From the NCBI GenBank assembly GCA_031178065.1, contig JAPSJS010000011.1, forward strand, positions 1 through 64,000: 64,000 nt of DNA. The letters are read 5' to 3'. Position 1 is the first letter of the stretch. Each line of letters starts with the position of its first letter. Below are positions 4,110-50,931 of the stretch, one piece after another. The position numbers and the translations under genes were made by a program. This stretch comes from Altererythrobacter sp. (GTDB taxonomy: Bacteria; Pseudomonadota; Alphaproteobacteria; Sphingomonadales; Sphingomonadaceae). The notes below the pieces were generated by a model. It was given only the letters and a program-made list of their open reading frames with translations. It was not told the DNA's origin and did not search any database.

Positions 4110-5594
4110 ATGATCGATATTCCCGCGCTCAAGCGCGAATGGCTATCCAATCCCCGGCGCAACATTCTCGCCGGCATCGTCGTCGCGCTTGCGCTCATCC
4201 CCGAAGCAATCGGCTTCTCGATCATTGCCGGGGTCGATCCGCGCGTGGGGCTCTACGCCTCGTTCTCGATCGCGGTAATCATAGCGCTCGTCGGCGGACG
4301 CCCCGGTATGATCTCCGCCGCGACCGCCGCCGTTGCCGTGCTCGTCACGCCGCTGATCCGCGAGCACGGGCTCGACTACCTGTTCGCGGCGACGATCCTG
4401 ATGGGCGTGATTCAGATCGCGGCCGGATACCTGCGGCTGCACCTGCTGATGCAATACGTCTCGCGCTCGGTGGTTACCGGCTTTGTCAACGCGCTCGCGA
4501 TCCTGATCTTCATGGCGCAGCTCCCCGAGCTGATCGGCGTGCCGATGGTCACTTACGGGTTCGTCGCGGCAGGCCTTGCGATCATCTATCTGTTCCCGCG
4601 CCTGACCCGTGCCGTGCCCTCACCGCTGGTCGCCATCGTGATCCTGACGGCCGTGGTCTATTACGCCGGGTTCGACGTGCGCACCGTGGGCGACATGGGC
4701 GAGTTGCCCTCCTCGCTTCCGCAGTGGCTGATTCCGGACGTGCCTTTCACGCTCGAGACGCTGCAGATCATCTTCCCCTATTCGGCGACCATGGCCGCCG
4801 TCGGCCTGCTCGAATCGATGCTGACCGCGCAGATCGTCGACGATCTGACCGACACCGGTTCGGACAAGCAGCGCGAGATGAAGGGGCAGGGCATCGCCAA
4901 CTTCTTCACCGGCTTCCTCGGCGGGATGGGTGGCTGCGCGATGATCGGCCAGTCGGTGATCAACGTGAAGTCGGGCGGCGAGACGCGGCTTTCGACCTTC
5001 GTCGCCGGCTCGTTCCTGCTGTTCCTGATCGTCGTGCTCGGCCCGCTGGTGGCGCGGATCCCGATGGCCGCGCTGGTCGCCGTGATGATCATGGTATCGA
5101 TCGGCACCTTCTCATGGCGCTCGATCCGCGACATCCGCCACCATCCCTGGCAGTCCTCCGTGGTCATGGTGGTCACGGTCGTGGTGGTGGTGTGGACCCA
5201 CGACCTCGCGCAAGGCGTGCTCGCGGGCGTAATCCTCTCGGGCCTGTTCTTCGCGAGCAAGGTCAAGCGGCTGTTCACGGTCGAGAGCGAGCTCTCGGCC
5301 GATGGCGCGACCCGCACCTACCGCGTCGAGGGGCAGGTGTTCTTCGCCTCGTCCGACAGTTTCGTCTCGGCGTTCGATTACAAGGAAGTGGTCGACCGCG
5401 TGGTGATCGACGTCGGCCGGGCGCACTTCTGGGACATTTCCGCGGTCGGCACGCTCGACAAGGCGATCCTCAAGTTCCGGCGCGAGGGTACCGCAGTCGA
5501 GGTCGTCGGGCTCAACCCGGCCAGCGCGGCGATGATCGAGCGTTACGCCGTGCATGACAAGCCGGGCGCCGAAGCGCATTCTGGAGGGCACTGA
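4110..5594 (+). CDS. SulP family inorganic anion transporter with STAS domain
   Basis: A 494-residue inner-membrane protein. The first ~380 residues form a SulP transport domain with many hydrophobic helices. Early family signatures are visible: [25 protein letters not shown] near the N-terminus and [16 protein letters not shown] in the middle. The C-terminal ~90 residues ([19 protein letters not shown] through [20 protein letters not shown]) form a STAS domain. Family members move sulfate, bicarbonate or other anions; the substrate cannot be told from sequence. The stop codon overlaps the start of a universal stress protein gene by one base, a coupling seen in several SulP operons and suggesting joint regulation under stress. 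Confidence 0.9.
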
Positions 5595-27981: not shown

Positions 27982-28042
27982 GGTAATCCCCGGCTTGGTT
28001 GTACTCGCCAGGGTTTAAGCAAGAGGTGTGCCAATAGCGGCG

Positions 28043-28411
28043 TCAGGCGTAGTAAGGCATCTCCCGCGCCACCGAGGGGCGGCCCGCACCGTAGAGGCTG
28101 ATGCGGCCGGTGAGCGAGCCCAGGCGGGCATCGACGTTGGCGGCGATCAGGTTGCGGATCTTGCGGTTAATCTCGTTCAGTCGCGCGACGGCGTCGAGCA
28201 GACCGCGGCATTCCTCGTCCAGCGGGGCGCCATCTGGCGTACCGTGGGTCTCGCGCTCGATCGTTTCGCACAGCTCCAGCTTGCCGTCGGAGCAGGTGAG
28301 GATGGAATCGAGGTCGAGGGCGGCAAGCGCCTGCCGCTCGCTTTCGAGAAGGGCAAGCATTTGCCGGAGTGCATCGTGCAGAGTGGGGCGAAGGGGGCTG
28401 TCGGTGGTCAT
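28043..28411 (-). CDS. flgN: FlgN-like flagellar export chaperone
   Basis: A 122-residue, mostly helical protein. LRQMLALLESERQALAALDLDSILTCSDGKLELCETIE, and later LDAVARLNEINRKIRNLIAANVDARLGSL, follow the FlgN pattern of an N-terminal helical pair and a C-terminal 'N...N...l...RL' helix. FlgN escorts hook-filament junction proteins FlgK and FlgL to the export gate. Position directly after flgM, overlapping it by 4 bp, is the usual flgM-flgN order and strengthens the call. Confidence 0.82.
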   Translation of the reverse strand: MTTDSPLRPTLHDALRQMLALLESERQALAALDLDSILTCSDGKLELCETIERETHGTPDGAPLDEECRGLLDAVARLNEINRKIRNLIAANVDARLGSLTGRISLYGAGRPSVAREMPYYA

Positions 28412-28753: not shown

Positions 28754-28800
28754 AGGCGCCCGGCGAGAATTTGCCGTTCGGGCGGTCCGCTCTGACGTTT

Positions 28801-29318: not shown

Positions 29319-29780
29319 TCACTTCTCCTGCGGCGCGCGGGACGCCGAGCGTGCCGGTGTCTCTGCAATCCCTGTGCCAGATGTGCGGCCGTCGAAGTCG
29401 AGCACCGCGATCAGCTCGCTTGCTTGTCCCGGCTCGACCACGATCCGGGCGCTGTATCCGTCCGCCCCAGCCTCGCGGGCGAGAGCGACCGCCGCAGCGG
29501 CGGCCTCGGCGTTGCCGCCGGCGACATAGTGGGCGATGATGGTGAGGCTCTGCCGCGCGTCGTGCGGCTGTTGGGCGAGCCAGTCCCGCAGCGGCGGCGC
29601 GCCCGGCGCCGCGCGGTAGATTGCGAGGGGTTCACCATGTGCCGGAACGGGGCTGCCGGCCTCGGCCGGATCGTCCGGCTCCGGCCTTTCCGCCATCGCG
29701 GCGGCCGTAACCATGAACAGGATCAGGGCGAGATCGGCGAGCGTCGTCTGCCAACCGGCGCGGGCGTTCGAGAGGATCAT
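29319..29780 (-). CDS. Short MotB/ExbD-like membrane protein of a putative second stator
   Basis: A 153-residue protein with one N-terminal membrane helix (LADLALILFMVTAAAMAE). An Asp lies at the helix start, where MotB and ExbD keep their proton-binding aspartate. The periplasmic remainder is only ~115 residues. Its segment RQSLTIIAHYVAGGNAEAAAAAVALAREAG faintly recalls the OmpA/ExbD strand-helix pattern, but I see no intact peptidoglycan-binding motif. It is translationally coupled (ATGA) to the MotA-like gene and lies in the flgA-flgM-flgN-flhA-fliA arm, well away from the canonical motAB. It probably forms a proton channel with the MotA-like partner; whether it drives the flagellum is unknown. 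Confidence 0.6.
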   Translation of the reverse strand: MILSNARAGWQTTLADLALILFMVTAAAMAERPEPDDPAEAGSPVPAHGEPLAIYRAAPGAPPLRDWLAQQPHDARQSLTIIAHYVAGGNAEAAAAAVALAREAGADGYSARIVVEPGQASELIAVLDFDGRTSGTGIAETPARSASRAPQEK

Positions 29781-30491: not shown

Positions 30492-30543
30492 TTTGCCGCT
30501 TCCGGCAAACGCTTGCCGCCATCCGCCTGCGTTTTCCGGCAAA
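30492..30543. promoter_or_regulatory. Putative FlbD enhancer site array upstream of flgB
   Basis: Inverted repeats in the pattern TTGCCG-N4-CGGCAA-N4-TTGCCG at 30493-30518, and a further CGGCAAA at 30537-30543. The array lies about 45-70 bp upstream of the sigma-54 promoter, where an activator of the FlbD type would bind. The identical triad occurs inside fliK at 49277-49302. The position, symmetry and recurrence support an enhancer; the binding protein is inferred to be the product of 42386-43648. Confidence 0.6.
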
Positions 30544-30561: not shown

Positions 30562-30577
30562 TTGGCACGCTCTTTGC
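30562..30577 (+). promoter_or_regulatory. Sigma-54 promoter of the flgB operon
   Basis: TTGGCACGCTCTTTGCT matches the -24/-12 consensus (TGGCACG-N4-TTGCW) essentially perfectly. It lies 34 bp upstream of the flgB ATG. An RpoN-dependent activator gene is in the same cluster. Confidence 0.88.
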
Positions 30578-30610
30578 TCCACCAGGCCCGAACACGTCTG
30601 GAGGACTGTC

Positions 30611-41199: not shown

Positions 41200-42012
41200 T
41201 TAACGCAGCAGCGAAAGAACGTTCTGCTGGCTCTGGTTCGCCTGCGACAGCATCGCGGTCGAAGCCTGGCTGAGGATCTGCGCCTTCGCCAGCGCAGTCG
41301 TTTCGGCCGAGTAGTCGGTGTCCTGGATGCGCGAGCGCGCGTCGGACAGGTTGGTCACGTTGTTGGTCAGCGTGTTGACCGCCGATTCCAGGCGGCTCTG
41401 GCCGGCACCGAGCGTGGCGCGGGCGGTCGAGATCGCCTCGAGCTGCGCGTCGGCCGTGGCGATCGCCGTGGTCGCGGAAGCGGCGTCGGTGCCGACGTCG
41501 AAGGCGGCGGCCGTGAGACCCGAAAGGTCGGCCATCGCCAGGTCGATCGTGTCGGTGGCTTCGGCACCAGCCTGGATCGTGACGGTCGCGGTGCTGGCGT
41601 CGAACAGCTTGACCCCGTTGAACTCGCTGTTCGCGACGACGGCGTCGATCTGCGACTTGAGCTCGGTGACTTCCGCCTGCAGGTTGGCGCGGTCGGAGGC
41701 CTGATAGGTGCCCGAGGACGACTGCACGGCCAGCTCGCGGATGCGCTGCAGCATGTTGGTGACTTCGTTCAGGCCGCCTTCCGCGGTCTGCGCCATCGAG
41801 ATGCCGTCGTTCGCATTACGGATGCCCTGGCTCATGCCACGGATCTGCGAGGTCATCGACGTCGCGATGGCGAGGCCGGCGGCGTCGTCCTTCGCACTGT
41901 TGATACGGTTGCCGGTCGACAGGCGTTCCATCGCCGAACCGAGCGCCTTGTTGGCAGCGGCCGAGGCGTTGGCAGCCTTGAGCGCGCTGATATTCGTATT
42001 GATAACGGACAT
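41200..42012 (-). CDS. fliC: Flagellin
   Basis: A 270-residue flagellin with the standard N-terminal D0/D1 sequence ([60 protein letters not shown]). The matching C-terminus is [44 protein letters not shown]. The outer D2/D3 domains are absent, giving a minimal filament. It is the only flagellin gene in the window. It is transcribed from a sigma-28-like promoter in the opposite direction to the neighbouring operons, with GGGAG as ribosome-binding site 7 nt before the ATG and a strong terminator after the stop. Confidence 0.96.
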
Positions 42013-42080
42013 TGTTCAAACTCCCACAATGCTCTTCAAGGGCTGCCCCGAGACCCCGTCTTGGGCGGCAGCTTGAACCC

Positions 42081-42107
42081 AGACCGGCAATCCGCCGGGA
42101 AGTTTTA
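42081..42107 (-). promoter_or_regulatory. Sigma-28 (FliA) promoter of fliC
   Basis: On the minus strand TAAAACTT, 11 bp, GCCGGTCT, i.e. TAAA and GCCG separated by 15 bp as in the FliA consensus TAAAGTTT-N11-GCCGATAA. The expected start point is about 60 bp before the fliC ATG. Confidence 0.7.
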
Positions 42108-42152
42108 GGGGGAGGGCGGATTTTCGTGGCCCCGCACGGGTCTGGAGAGTTT

Positions 42153-42234
42153 CCATCATCCCAGTCCACGATGGCATCGCTCTCCGCCAGGTCGGCCTTT
42201 GCCGCACGCGATCCCGGCTTGCGCTGGGCGACGG
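42153..42234. repeat. Degenerate copy of the dispersed inverted repeat
   Basis: It carries the arms CATCATCCCAG and GCGCTGGGCGACGG, and a central CCGCCAGGTCGG and GCACGCGATCCC in the same order as the 59994-60076 element. The arms have diverged, so the hairpin is imperfect. It lies upstream of the fliC promoter in the fliC-flbD gap. Confidence 0.65.
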
Positions 42235-42308
42235 AGGGGCCGGATGACGACTCCGCGCACGCCCCGCTTCCTCGAACTAAGTATTTCTACTTAAGGACGT
42301 TCCGCTGT

Positions 42309-42367
42309 TAACCATTAAGCGAAATTTCCCCTTACCGGCGCCAATAGGGCCGCGGACGGATGGTTAA
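42309..42367. promoter_or_regulatory. Pair of CtrA-like half-sites upstream of the flbD-like gene
   Basis: TTAACCAT at 42309-42316 and its reverse complement ATGGTTAA at 42360-42367, 19 bp before the GTG start of the activator gene. TTAACCAT is the described alphaproteobacterial CtrA half-site. The AT-rich stretch just upstream (TAAGTATTTCTACTTAAGG region) could hold the promoter. Control of the sigma-54 activator by CtrA is the inference. Confidence 0.5.
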
Positions 42368-42385
42368 TCAGCAGGGGGCTGAAAA

Positions 42386-43648
42386 GTGGGATCGATCGAA
42401 CGGACCCAAGGGTTCGAAAAGGCTCACGTTTCGCTGGCGGGCAAGTTCGCGGGGATCGCATCCTCGCTCTTTCCCCGGCAGGTCGTACACCTCGCCGACG
42501 CCGCCGAAAGCGGGCTGCGCGAGTTGCCCGGCGTGATTGCACTGGCGCGGGCCGACGTGCCCGCGATCCAGCGGATGGGAACCGGCGCACGGCTGACTTA
42601 TGCCGATCCGGTGTCGGAATCGACGTTCGGCGCGCTCGTCGCGCTGGCCGCGGCCGGTGGGGGGCCGGTCGCGGCCGATCCGGAATCGCTCTCGGTCCTG
42701 GCGCTGGCCGACCGGCTGGCGGGGACCGACATTCCGGTGCTCATCAACGGACCGACCGGCACCGGCAAGGAAGTCCTGTCGCAGTTCATCCACAACCGCA
42801 GCCAGCGGCAGGGCAAGCCCTTTGTGGCGGTCAACTGCGCGGCCATTCCCGAGACGATGCTGGAAGCGCTGCTGTTCGGTCACCAGAAGGGCGCGTTCAC
42901 CGGCGCCAGCGCGGCGGGCGAGGGCTTCTTCCGCGCGGCCGAGGGCGGCACACTGCTGCTCGACGAGATCGCCGAGATGCCGCTCCCGCTCCAGGCCAAG
43001 CTGCTGCGGGCGCTGCAGGAAAGCGAAGTCGTGCCAGTCGGCGCGACCACGCCGGTCAAGGTCGACGTGCGGATCATCGCCTGCGCCAACCGCGACCTGC
43101 CGCTGGAGGTCGAGGAAGGCCGTTTCCGTGCCGACTTGTTCTACCGCCTCAACGTATTTCCCATGACGCTGTCGGCGCTGCGCGAGCGGCCGAACGACAT
43201 CGTGCCGCTGGCCTTCGCCATGCTGCTGCGCCACGCGCCGCAGGGGCAGCAGGTTCCCTGGCTTACCGACGGGGCCGTTGCCATGCTCAAGCAGCACGGC
43301 TGGCCCGGCAATATCCGCGAGCTGGAGAACGTCATGCGCCGCGCATTGGTGCTCGCCGGCGGCGAGACGGCGATCGGCACGCAGCATATCGTGTTCGACC
43401 GACCCGCTCGGCTGGTCGAACGCACGCCGGAAGCGGCGCCGCAGGTCGACTTCGACGAGGCCGGCGCCGGGGCGAAGCTCTCCAAGGTGGTGCAGCTTTC
43501 CGAAGCGCGCGCAATCATGGAAACGCTCGACGCATGCGGCGGCAAGCGAGCCGAGGCCGCGCGCCAGCTCGGCATCAGCGAACGCACGCTGCGTTATCGC
43601 CTGGCATCCTTCCGCGAAGCCGGTCTGGCCGTCGGAGGCCGTCGATGA
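42386..43648 (+). CDS. flbD: Sigma-54-dependent transcriptional activator, FlbD-like
   Basis: A 420-residue AAA+ activator starting at GTG 42386. The N-terminal ~110 residues lack a recognisable phospho-receiver. The central domain has Walker A (NGPTGTGKEV), the sigma-54-contacting GAFTGA loop (HQKGAFTGASA), Walker B (GGTLLLDEIAEM) and the arginine-finger segment (GRFRADLFYRLNVFPM). The C-terminus is a Fis-type helix-turn-helix (GGKRAEAARQLGISERTLRYRL). Position directly before fliE and the presence of two sigma-54 promoters in the cluster make it the flagellar activator, analogous to Caulobacter FlbD. It probably binds the TTGCCG/CGGCAA triads. Confidence 0.88.
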   Translation: MGSIERTQGFEKAHVSLAGKFAGIASSLFPRQVVHLADAAESGLRELPGVIALARADVPAIQRMGTGARLTYADPVSESTFGALVALAAAGGGPVAADPESLSVLALADRLAGTDIPVLINGPTGTGKEVLSQFIHNRSQRQGKPFVAVNCAAIPETMLEALLFGHQKGAFTGASAAGEGFFRAAEGGTLLLDEIAEMPLPLQAKLLRALQESEVVPVGATTPVKVDVRIIACANRDLPLEVEEGRFRADLFYRLNVFPMTLSALRERPNDIVPLAFAMLLRHAPQGQQVPWLTDGAVAMLKQHGWPGNIRELENVMRRALVLAGGETAIGTQHIVFDRPARLVERTPEAAPQVDFDEAGAGAKLSKVVQLSEARAIMETLDACGGKRAEAARQLGISERTLRYRLASFREAGLAVGGRR

Positions 43649-47251: not shown

Positions 47252-48576
47252 GCGAGCTGGACACGGTGCTCGGCGAACTCGCCATGCCGCCGGTCGACCT
47301 GCACCCGCGCCGCTTCGGCCGGATCGCGGCCTGCGACGGCGGGCTGATCGAGGTCAGCGGCCTTTCGGTGCCCATCGGCGGCCTGTGCCGGATCGACGAC
47401 GGCAAGGGCGCGACGCTCACCGCCGAGGCGATCGGCTTCCGCAACGGACGCACGATGATGATGATGCTCGGCGACAGCGTGCTGCTGCGTCCCGGCGTGC
47501 CCGTGCGGCCGGAAGGGCGGCCAGGCATGCTGCCGGTCGGCCCGGCCTTTCTCGGCCGCGCGGTCGACGGCCTCGGCCGCCCGATCGACGGCGGCCCGCC
47601 GCTGCGCTCGCGCGCGGAATGGCCCGCGGGCGGCAAGCGCACCGGCGCGCTCGACCGCGCGAGCGTGCGCGAGCCGTTCGACACCGGCATTCGCGCGATC
47701 AACGCGCTGACCACCTTCGGCATCGGCCAGCGCGTCGGCATCATGGCCGGCTCGGGCGTCGGCAAGTCGGTGCTGATCGACATGATCGCGCACGGCGCGG
47801 AAGCCGACGTGGTCGTGGTCGGCCTGATCGGCGAGCGCGCGCGCGAGGTCTCCGACTTCGTCGAACGGCACATGCAGGGCGAGGCGGCCGCGCGCACGGC
47901 AGTCGTCGCCGTTCCTGCCGACCATGCCGCGAACCTGCGGCTGCGCGGCGCGCTGCTGGCGACCTCGCTCGCCGAATATTTCCGCGCGCAGGGCCTGCGC
48001 GTGCTGCTGATCCAGGACAGCCTGACCCGCATCGCCCATGCGGCGCGCGAGATCGGGATACTGCTCGGCGAGCCCGGCGCAGCGCGCGGCTATCCGCCTT
48101 CGGCGCTGTCGACGATCACCAAGCTGGTCGAGCGGGCGGGCAATTCGGCCGAAAGCGGCGGCTCGATCACCGGGATCTACACCGTGCTCGCCGACGGCGA
48201 CGACCAGAACGATCCGGTGGTGGACACGGCCCGCTCGATCCTCGACGGCCACGTCGTGCTCTCGCGCGATCTCGCACAGCGGGGGCAATATCCGGCGATC
48301 GACGTCGGCGCTTCGCTCAGCCGCGTGATGAGCGACGTCGCGAGCCCGCAGCAGAACCTGCTCGCGCGCAGCCTGCGCGCGCTCGTTTCGGCCTACGAGA
48401 GCAACCGCGACCTGCTGCTGATGGGTGCCTACCGCCCCGGGGCCGATCCGCTGGTCGACCGCGGCATCGCGCTCCACCCCCAGATCGCCGAATTCCTCAA
48501 GCAGGACGTGGCCGAGCGCGTTTCGCTGGACGAGGCCACCGTGCAGCTCCGGCAGCTGATCGGCAATGACCAGTGA
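47245..48576 (+). CDS. fliI: Flagellum-specific export ATPase FliI
   Basis: A 443-residue ATPase related to the F1 beta subunit. The likely start is GTG 47245 inside the end of fliH; ATG 47284 is an alternative. Walker A (GIMAGSGVGKSVLIDMIAHG), VVGLIGERAREVSDF, Walker B (GLRVLLIQDSLTRIAHAAREIG) and GEPGAARGYPPS are complete. It uses ATP hydrolysis to unload export substrates at the gate. The ORF track's version starts within fliH. Confidence 0.96.
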   Translation: MLSELDTVLGELAMPPVDLHPRRFGRIAACDGGLIEVSGLSVPIGGLCRIDDGKGATLTAEAIGFRNGRTMMMMLGDSVLLRPGVPVRPEGRPGMLPVGPAFLGRAVDGLGRPIDGGPPLRSRAEWPAGGKRTGALDRASVREPFDTGIRAINALTTFGIGQRVGIMAGSGVGKSVLIDMIAHGAEADVVVVGLIGERAREVSDFVERHMQGEAAARTAVVAVPADHAANLRLRGALLATSLAEYFRAQGLRVLLIQDSLTRIAHAAREIGILLGEPGAARGYPPSALSTITKLVERAGNSAESGGSITGIYTVLADGDDQNDPVVDTARSILDGHVVLSRDLAQRGQYPAIDVGASLSRVMSDVASPQQNLLARSLRALVSAYESNRDLLLMGAYRPGADPLVDRGIALHPQIAEFLKQDVAERVSLDEATVQLRQLIGNDQ

Positions 48577-49016
48577 CGATGACTGGCGACAGGGGGCGCC
48601 TGCGCCGCGCGCGCCTGATCGAGCGGCTGCGCTCGGCCGAGCAGCGCCAGGCCGCGGCCGAAGCGCACCGGGCCGAAGCGGTGCGGCAGAAGCTCGAACA
48701 GCTTTCCGAACGCACGCGCACGCTGGCGCAGGTCTATGCCCTGCGCGACACCTCGCGCGACGGCGCCGACTTGCGCAGCGCCACCGTGCTTGGCAGCCAT
48801 CTCCGCGATCTCGGCGCGACCGCCGCATTGCAGGCCGAACACGCCCGGCGCGAGGCGGACGACCGGCTGGCCGATCTCGCGGTCGCCGAGCGCCGTCTGC
48901 AGAAGGCGGAGGAAGGGCGCCGCGATCTCGCCCGCGCGATCCACGAAAAGGTCGAGAAGCGCGAACCCATCGGCGCGAGGAACGGCGCGAGGAAAACTGG
49001 CACGCATCTTGAATAA
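48573..49016 (+). CDS. fliJ: Flagellar export protein FliJ
   Basis: A 147-residue coiled-coil protein from GTG 48573, overlapping the fliI stop (GTGA); ATG 48579 is possible. It is rich in Arg, Glu, Ala and Leu with heptad-like spacing (RLRSAEQRQAAAEAHRAEAVRQKLEQLSERTRTLAQVY, and EHARREADDRLADLAVAERRLQKAEEGRRDLARAI). This matches FliJ in length, position and character more than in exact sequence, as usual for this fast-evolving protein. The last eight codons contain the sigma-54 promoter of the fliK operon. Confidence 0.8.
   Translation: MTMTGDRGRLRRARLIERLRSAEQRQAAAEAHRAEAVRQKLEQLSERTRTLAQVYALRDTSRDGADLRSATVLGSHLRDLGATAALQAEHARREADDRLADLAVAERRLQKAEEGRRDLARAIHEKVEKREPIGARNGARKTGTHLE
48998..49012 (+). 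promoter_or_regulatory. Sigma-54 promoter of the fliK operon
   Basis: TGGCACGCATCTTGA, sharing TGGCACGC and the spacing with the flgB promoter. The -24 element is perfect; the -12 reads TTGA instead of TTGC, so it may be weaker. It lies in the fliJ 3' end, about 36 bp before the fliK ATG. Confidence 0.6.
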
Positions 49017-49017
49017 A

Positions 49018-49039
49018 CGTGTGCGTTCAATCGCACACG
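49018..49039 (+). promoter_or_regulatory. Perfect stem-loop in the fliK leader
   Basis: CGTGTGCG and CGCACACG pair over 8 bp with a 6-nt loop (TTCAAT). It lies between the predicted start point of the sigma-54 transcript and the fliK start codon, so it would form the very 5' end of that mRNA or overlap its start. It could affect stability or translation. Confidence 0.5.
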
Positions 49040-49047
49040 GCAGGCCA

Positions 49048-50313
49048 ATGATTTCTCAGCTTCTTTCCCAGTCCAAGGCGCCCTCGGTGCTCGACCTCGG
49101 CGCGGCCGCACCGGCGACAGGCGGCGAAGCGGGCGTGCAAGGCGCGTTCTCGCGCCTGCTCTCCGCCCTCGGCGCCGCTGTGCAGGGCGGGCAGGCCGAG
49201 GAGCCGACTTCCGAGACACCAGAGATAGCCGTCGAAGACGAGGGCGAGGCCGTTCCGGTCATCGCGCTGCCGGACATTGCCGGAACCGGCAAGATCTTGC
49301 CGGCCGATGCCGAGGCTTTGCCGGAAGCGGCGGAGAATGCCGGTGCCGCCGAGGCTGCTCTGACCACGCTGGCGCTGACGCCGCCGCAGGTCGTGCAGCC
49401 GGCGGCTGGCGAGCCGGTGGCCAAGGCAGGGCACGCCTCCGCGCCCGCAACCGCCGCGTCCGCACTCCCGTTCGTGCCCCAGCTTCCTGCTGGTCTTCCG
49501 CTCCCCGCGCAGGCAGAGGGCGAGGCCGCCAAGCCGGCGACACCTGCCGTCGCGATCCAAGTCGCGCCGCTGCCCGCAACGGGCGAGACGGCCGCCGCGC
49601 CGCGCGATCCGGCGCTCGCTGCGGACAAGCCCGCGGTCGAGCTCGCCGCCAAGTTCCAGCCCGCCGGCGCTTCGGCCGAGCGCGGGCGCGACCCGGCCGC
49701 CGGCGATCGCCCTGCGGCCGAGCCGGCCGTGAAGGCGCCGAGCAGGATCGTCGCCGAACCCGCTTCGGTCCAAACGCCGGCACCGGTGCAGCCCGCGGCC
49801 CTTGCCGCTGCCACCCCAGCCGGCGCCGCGAGCGACGCCGCGCCGTCCTTCACTGCCGACAAACCCGCGGTCGAGACCGGCATCGCGCGCGAGCTCAGTC
49901 GGATCGTCGACAGCCTCGCCTCGGCGCGCGAGGCGATGGCGGGCAAGGGCGCGACGCTGGCGCTCGACCATGCCGAATTCGGCGAGCTCTCGCTTCGCTT
50001 CGACCAGCGGCGCGACGGCCAGCTCGGCGTCCAGATCGCCGCGGCCGATCCCGAGGCGCACCGCGCGGTCGCCGCTGCCGTGGCGGACCGGCCGGCCTTC
50101 ACGCAGGGCGACGGAAGCGCGCCGGGCAGCCAGCAGAACGCGCAGAGCGGCGGCAATGCGTCCGCCCGCGGCGGATCGCTTGCCGACCGCGACGGCGGCT
50201 CTGCCGAAGGCAATCCACCGCACCGTGAGCGGCACGAAGGCCGCCGCCGCGCCGACACCGACACCTCCGGGCAGGGCGCTCGCCGCGGCGACGGCTCCGC
50301 GATCTACGCCTGA
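49048..50313 (+). CDS. fliK: Flagellar hook-length control protein FliK
   Basis: A 421-residue protein from ATG 49048 (MISQLLSQSKAPSVLDLG). The N-terminal two-thirds are Ala/Pro-rich and likely extended, suiting the ruler role. The C-terminal part contains the conserved export-switch domain (ELSRIVDSLASAREAMAGKGATLALDHAEFGELSLRFDQRRDGQLGVQIAAADPEAHRAVAAAVADRP). It measures hook length and switches FlhB specificity. Two rare TTG leucine codons fall exactly in the TTGCCG motifs of an embedded enhancer-like site. The ORF track start at 48736 belongs to fliJ territory. Confidence 0.88.
   Translation: MISQLLSQSKAPSVLDLGAAAPATGGEAGVQGAFSRLLSALGAAVQGGQAEEPTSETPEIAVEDEGEAVPVIALPDIAGTGKILPADAEALPEAAENAGAAEAALTTLALTPPQVVQPAAGEPVAKAGHASAPATAASALPFVPQLPAGLPLPAQAEGEAAKPATPAVAIQVAPLPATGETAAAPRDPALAADKPAVELAAKFQPAGASAERGRDPAAGDRPAAEPAVKAPSRIVAEPASVQTPAPVQPAALAAATPAGAASDAAPSFTADKPAVETGIARELSRIVDSLASAREAMAGKGATLALDHAEFGELSLRFDQRRDGQLGVQIAAADPEAHRAVAAAVADRPAFTQGDGSAPGSQQNAQSGGNASARGGSLADRDGGSAEGNPPHRERHEGRRRADTDTSGQGARRGDGSAIYA
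49277..49323. promoter_or_regulatory. Putative intragenic FlbD enhancer array in fliK
   Basis: TTGCCG-N4-CGGCAA-N4-TTGCCG at 49277-49302 and a further TTGCCG at 49318-49323. The triad has exactly the spacing seen upstream of flgB. It is about 265 bp downstream of the fliK sigma-54 promoter, a position from which enhancer-binding activators can still act by looping. Confidence 0.5.
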
Positions 50314-50346: not shown

Positions 50347-50931
50347 ATGAGTGACAAGAAGGACAACCAGGACAAGCCGGCCAAGGGCAGGGGCGTGCTC
50401 AAGCTGCTGCTGGTGGGTGTGCTCGTCGCCGGTGCGGCCGGGGGCACGGTGTTCGGCCTGATGTCGACCGGCGTGATCCAGATGGCCGGCGCGAATGCCA
50501 CGGAAGCCGGGCCGCAGTTCGTGCTCAAGGGAGAGAAAGACCCCTACGCACCGCCCGCGCCGAAGGGCTCCACCGGCAAAACCGACGTCGTCCACGGCGA
50601 AGGCGGCAACAAGTACCGCACTGCCTATTTCAGCTTCGCCGAGGACTTCACTTCGAACCTCAAGAACAGCGACGGCCTCATCCAGGTGAGCCTCGCCGCC
50701 TCGACCCGTCGCGACGGGCGCGTGCTGATGTGGCTCGACGAGCACCAGCTCGCGATCCGCTCGCGCATCCTCGTCGAGCTTGCCGACACGCCCGAGGAAA
50801 CGGTGATGACCAGCGCGGGCAAGAAGGACCTGCAGAAGCGCCTGACCGACGCGGTCAACGCCGTGCTCGTCGAGCAGGAAGGCTTCGGCGGGGTCGACAA
50901 CGTCTACTTCCGGACCTTCATCGTCCAATGA
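50347..50931 (+). CDS. fliL: Flagellar basal body-associated protein FliL
   Basis: A 194-residue single-pass inner-membrane protein. A short charged N-terminus precedes the TM helix (LKLLLVGVLVAGAAGGTVFGLM). The periplasmic SPFH-like domain shows YRTAYFSFAEDFTSNLKNSDGLIQVSLAASTRRDGRVLMWLDEHQLAIRSRILVELADTPEETVMTSAGKKDLQKRLTDAVNAVL. It surrounds and stabilises stators. SD AAGGA precedes the ATG. Confidence 0.92.
   Translation: MSDKKDNQDKPAKGRGVLKLLLVGVLVAGAAGGTVFGLMSTGVIQMAGANATEAGPQFVLKGEKDPYAPPAPKGSTGKTDVVHGEGGNKYRTAYFSFAEDFTSNLKNSDGLIQVSLAASTRRDGRVLMWLDEHQLAIRSRILVELADTPEETVMTSAGKKDLQKRLTDAVNAVLVEQEGFGGVDNVYFRTFIVQ

Follow-up and report, generated by a model that had tools for sequence, protein, structure and literature searches.

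The fliK gene of this Altererythrobacter sp. carries within its coding sequence a symmetric DNA element, CGGCAA-N4-TTGCCG, that is conserved at the DNA level across the order and is almost constantly paired with a sigma-54 promoter at the end of fliJ; the same genome contains one rpoN gene and an intact sigma-54 activator gene at 42386–43648. Probably, the element serves as an intragenic downstream enhancer of the fliK promoter, at which the activator would bind, loop the DNA and open the promoter. In the following, the window denotes the whole stretch of DNA analyzed, that is, the first 64,000 nucleotides of contig JAPSJS010000011.1 (assembly GCA_031178065.1).

The fliK dyad and its promoter

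An exact match to TTGCCG-N4-CGGCAA-N4-TTGCCG (hereafter the triad), with the letters TTGCCGGAACCGGCAAGATCTTGCCG, was identified in fliK at 49277–49302 on the plus strand. A second exact copy with identical spacing is found upstream of flgB at 30493–30518 (plus strand), as had been stated in the preliminary description of this DNA, and the additional TTGCCG reported there within fliK was located at 49318–49323. The features of the fliK region are the following:

48566–49012, plus strand: fliJ, assigned by synteny; no Pfam hit
48998–49013, plus strand: sigma-54 promoter of the fliK operon, TGGCACGCATCTTGAA, from the matrix scan; present at this place in nearly all of the 68 loci described below
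49048–50313, plus strand: fliK, assigned by synteny (fliJ before it, fliL after it); product without Pfam match
49277–49302, plus strand: triad, proposed downstream enhancer; one of only two triads in the genome, retained by all seven genus species
49287–49302, plus strand: core dyad CGGCAAGATCTTGCCG, a perfect 16-bp palindrome; the part kept across sphingomonads
49318–49323, plus strand: fourth half-site TTGCCG, 21 bp (two helical turns) past the third; TTG CCG in 7/7 genus members
50347–50931, plus strand: fliL, the next gene of the operon; Pfam FliL

In the matrix scan, the fliK promoter is one of the higher-scoring sigma-54-like sites in the window. It reads TGGCACG-N4-TTGA, where the canonical −12 element would be TTGC, a departure due to overlap with the fliJ stop codon (TGA, 49010–49012). 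Judged by this noncanonical element, the promoter may be weak in this clade. Its sequence is identical in the seven genus species, and in Novosphingobium and other Erythrobacter-like genomes the −12 element is likewise mostly TTGA, overlapping the fliJ stop codon; the Sphingomonas promoter is CGGCACG-N4-TTGC, with the fliJ stop codon just behind. The triad lies downstream, inside fliK, and 264 bp separate it from the end of the promoter, in agreement with the distance of ~265 bp given previously. Between the promoter and the fliK start codon, an inverted repeat, CGTGTGCG-TTCAAT-CGCACACG, was observed at 49018–49039; its arms vary, and some inverted repeat is retained in several genus members.

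With the activator gene as query, 80 loci were fetched, and most of them retain the gene order flbD-like, fliE, fliF, fliG, fliH, fliI, fliJ, fliK, fliL. Conservation was counted over 68 fliK genes whose start could be assigned, including that of the window and with L076 and L095 dropped; these loci share ancestry and were selected by the activator query, and the counts are thus not independent events. The preliminary description had let its reading depend on conservation of the motif in close relatives, and the dyad is present in all 68 fliK genes at no more than one mismatch, being exact in 58. In 100 rounds of synonymous shuffling, with every protein sequence and the codon usage of its gene held constant, an average of 1.5 exact dyads arose in the same 68 genes, and never more than 5. 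Counting both types of dyad at up to one mismatch, the density between fliI and fliL is 0.78 per kb, as against 0.056 per kb between fliF and fliI of the same loci. By comparison of these sequences, what is conserved throughout the order is CGGCAA-N4-TTGCCG, the 16-bp dyad, while the third half-site, which completes the triad, is common but not universal.

A sigma-54 promoter is found at the end of fliJ in nearly all of these loci. The dyad is located downstream of it, its center lying 198–674 bp (median 260) beyond the −12 element, and no other recurring sigma-54-like promoter was detected on either strand between fliI and fliL in the 68 loci. As for sigma-54 enhancers in general, a conserved −24/−12 promoter is found within looping distance of the dyad. 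That the dyad accompanies the promoter at the fliJ/fliK junction argues for the role originally proposed, a downstream enhancer of the fliK sigma-54 promoter.

A site of this kind might also bind the activator and repress or roadblock transcription, or it might serve another promoter, either antisense or farther along the cluster. The fliK site lies in transcribed DNA, where a bound protein could hinder elongation, and in Caulobacter, FlbD acts from ftr sites as an activator and also as a repressor (PMC3930126). Against this stand the near-constant pairing of the dyad with the promoter at the fliJ end and the lack of any other recurring sigma-54-like promoter from fliI to fliL, and we consider such a role unlikely compared with activation of the fliK promoter.

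Motif copies outside fliK

Further copies of the motif, and the sigma-54 promoters near them, were found in the flagellar cluster of the window:

30493–30518, plus strand: second triad, upstream of flgB; exact match, conserved in the genus and in other genera
30563–30578, plus strand: sigma-54 promoter of the flgB operon, TGGCACGCTCTTTGCT; top matrix score of the window
28321–28366, plus strand: two one-mismatch dyads (28321–28336 and 28351–28366) inside flgN; same place in 5/5 genus members checked
28018–28033, minus strand: sigma-54 promoter of the transglycosylase-flhA (slt-flhA) operon, TGGCACACCTCTTGCT; matrix scan
29364–29379, minus strand: sigma-54 promoter upstream of flgA, TGGCACAGGGATTGCA; matrix scan
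28761–28776, plus strand: one-mismatch dyad between flgA and flgM; place kept in five species, sequence varies

Within the genus, all four sigma-54 promoters of the cluster (flgB, fliK, slt-flhA, and flgA) have dyads in conserved places, the dyad being upstream for flgB, downstream for fliK, and upstream, in flgN, for slt-flhA. The dyad at 28761–28776, situated ~590 bp downstream of the flgA promoter, is weaker than the others. The flgN dyads are located ~300 bp upstream of the slt-flhA promoter and represent a second candidate for an enhancer in coding sequence. The triad of flgB resembles that of fliK in its half-sites, their spacing and the associated sigma-54 promoter, but is placed upstream of this promoter, whereas the fliK triad lies inside the gene that it is presumed to regulate. 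Both this genus and many others have the motif at the flgB promoter, which bears out the earlier suggestion that the fliK and flgB operons have this type of site in common.

All of the 30 triad loci retrieved from genomes of the family belong to a flagellar operon with an adjoining sigma-54 promoter. Their triads are mostly positioned upstream of flgB, and in L121, L122, and L127 the triad is located in fliK. In L131, L136, L137, and L142 it is found 660–690 bp downstream of the transglycosylase-flhA operon promoter, at the end of the rod transglycosylase gene and before flhA, making it a candidate downstream enhancer of another operon. In L117 (~923, 1501), a triad was observed within fliM, and a strong sigma-54-like site is also present in or near the end of this gene. 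In locus L184 of genome G004, the region upstream of flgB (5478–5535) contains three sigma-54-like promoter sequences in tandem, spaced 21 bp apart. In many relatives (L033–L112), the dyad is recurrent between fliC and the activator gene, with 61 matches, but it is absent from the corresponding gap of the window (42012–42386); this difference suggests that regulation of flagellin or of the activator has been rewired in this genus.

Extra half-sites surround the fliK dyad at ~10, 21, and 31 bp. Their distances tend toward multiples of 10.5 bp (R 0.52, n = 141, in a statistic that ignores kinship), the pattern that proteins stacked along one side of the DNA would produce. Because CGGCAAGATCTTGCCG is a perfect palindrome, it would also give a 6-bp stem in the fliK mRNA, and a hairpin controlling translation or stability of the transcript might be envisaged. 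However, it is the letters of the half-sites that are preserved and not pairing alone, the changes being single mismatches with no compensatory pairs, and the copy upstream of flgB lies outside the flgB transcript. Overlapping triads and half-sites at helical-turn distances moreover fit a DNA-binding protein, and we regard an RNA hairpin as very improbable.

Selection on DNA rather than protein

The fliK reading frame over the motif encodes I-A-G-T-G-K-I-L-P and, five codons later, L-P; the candidate enhancer occupies codons 77–85 and 91–92. Conceivably, the DNA motif could merely reflect a peptide motif of FliK (GKxLP, e.g., an export signal or part of a ruler region), and IAGTGKxLP is likewise conserved within the genus. 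The dyad is translated as xG(K/N)xLP in most of the 68 genes, but 13 Sphingomonas-type genomes read it in another frame, as RQxxA. The peptide reading, to which we give only a minute probability, was ruled out on these grounds; the encoded peptide differs with the frame, and selection thus acts on the DNA and not on the peptide. Some fliK genes contain two dyads 20–22 bp apart in differing frames, and the third frame, which would encode cysteine, was not seen in the fliK genes examined. The same DNA also recurs outside fliK.

Comparison of fliK within the genus points in the same direction. FliK is only ~46% identical between the two clades of the genus, and the triad and the fourth half-site are kept in 7/7 species despite this divergence. 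Where the amino acid is identical throughout the genus, the codon is also identical at eight of nine positions in the motif, compared with 25 of 99 elsewhere (Fisher p 0.0003). The half-sites are codon-fixed, whereas the codon in the N4 spacer varies (ATC, AAC, ATA, GTC, GAT, or ACT). From these sequences, the DNA at the fliK dyad is conserved beyond the protein, and the claim of selection on DNA, made earlier from codon choice, is sustained both by the two reading frames across the dyad and by codon fixation within the genus. The codon argument itself needs some adjustment. Both leucines of the motif are indeed encoded by the only TTG codons among the 29 leucine codons of this fliK, and TTG is fixed at the motif leucine in 7/7 genus species; the remaining leucines are not confined to CTC (13) and CTG (7), since CTT (7) is not rare.

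Frequency of the motif

The 3.17-Mb genome contains exactly two triads, both in the flagellar cluster, and none was found with a reversed-pattern control. In the window, six triad matches were obtained at up to three mismatches, where 0.22 were expected from dinucleotide shuffles, and synonymous shuffling of this fliK produced the triad in 19 and the dyad in 260 of 20,000 sequences. TTGCCG alone is frequent in the window (95 occurrences vs. 52 expected). The exact dyad is not enriched in its own genome, where it occurs four times, as it does in the reversed control, and it is for this reason not diagnostic alone; two of the four copies are nonflagellar. Chance or an artefact of base composition could be argued from these last counts, but is excluded for all practical purposes by the dyad at one place in 68/68 fliK genes (null ~1.5 exact) and by the triad in 33 of 201 genomes of a family sample, against none in the control.

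The putative activator

The candidate for the protein binding the dyad is encoded in the same cluster:

42386–43648, plus strand: flagellar sigma-54 activator, putative dyad binder; Pfam Sigma54_activat and HTH_8

Its product is an AAA+ protein with GAFTGA and Walker motifs and a Fis-type helix-turn-helix, and no receiver domain was detected by Pfam. The best NCBIfam match is FlbD, at 338.9 bits and hence below the cutoff of 750 for this equivalog model (NF050807); the match begins at profile position 90, the N-terminus being poorly alignable, and the model had no match at E ≤ 1e-150 in genome G000. In the alignment, the recognition helix reads SERTLRYRL, compared with SIRTLRNKL in true FlbD. 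FlbD-like regulation has been discussed for Sphingomonas sp. WG, from expression data only (PMC8921679). The genome encodes several other sigma-54 activators, and the assignment of this protein as the probable binder is therefore based on linkage and co-occurrence. A close homologue of the activator is present in 32 of the 33 triad genomes, compared with 97 of the 201 genomes overall (Fisher p 6e-11). The exception, G038 (L123), has a flgB triad and flagellar genes, but only distant activators and no close homologue.

Comparison with known systems

In Caulobacter crescentus, FlbD binds ftr2 and ftr3, the downstream enhancers for the operons flaN and flbG (hook), and activation of the flagellar sigma-54 promoters from downstream sites was reportedly described by Mullin and Newton in 1993 and by Gober and Shapiro in 1992. 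The principle of a downstream enhancer is thus not new, the Caulobacter hook-operon promoters being a precedent. As in the ftr/FlbD system, the candidate enhancer lies downstream of a sigma-54 promoter in transcribed DNA, and FlbD is the best NCBIfam match of the activator. In contrast to ftr, the sphingomonad site is located 198–674 bp downstream, inside fliK, and the activator differs from Caulobacter FlbD in lacking a receiver, in scoring below the FlbD cutoff and in its recognition helix. In 20 genomes with true FlbD, the exact dyad occurred 32 times vs. 19 in the control, which is no clear enrichment. With an activator that fails the FlbD model and a dyad not clearly enriched in FlbD genomes, we rejected the classification of the site as a Caulobacter ftr.

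Enhancers of the NtrC/FleQ type are dyad-symmetric, tandem and helically phased, and act at a distance on a −24/−12 promoter. The fliK dyad is similarly symmetric, with tandem, helically phased half-sites and a −24/−12 promoter at a distance, but it is situated downstream and in coding DNA, whereas NtrC/FleQ-type sites are mostly upstream and noncoding. No study of the fliK dyad element in sphingomonads was found in the literature searched, and within this literature three things are new: the type of site, its location far inside fliK and the fact that it persists throughout the order in more than one reading frame.

Proposed mechanism and implications

In the mechanism that we favor, dimers of the activator would bind, within fliK and ~280 bp past the promoter, the dyad CGGCAA-N4-TTGCCG and the neighboring half-sites, which share one face of the helix. 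The DNA would then loop back, so that the AAA+ hexamer could touch the sigma-54 RNA polymerase at the promoter over the fliJ stop codon and open it, and fliK, fliL, and later genes would be switched on. The like site upstream of flgB would couple the fliK operon to the rod-hook operon.

More speculatively, and with only a small chance of being correct, sphingomonads may control their flagella through a circuit of their own, with enhancers routinely situated within genes (fliK, the slt-flhA operon, flgN, and, in one genome, fliM). The polymerase elongating through fliK would clear its own enhancer, and the operon for hook length and export would become self-limiting.

Because synonymous changes can erase the site, downstream enhancer action is simple to test here. 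The sphingomonad flagellar hierarchy is largely unmapped in the literature searched, and the dyad gives a candidate binding-site rule for the sphingomonad flagellar activator. It also offers a clear natural case of a putative regulatory site that overlaps coding sequence and has persisted throughout an order despite changes of the reading frame.
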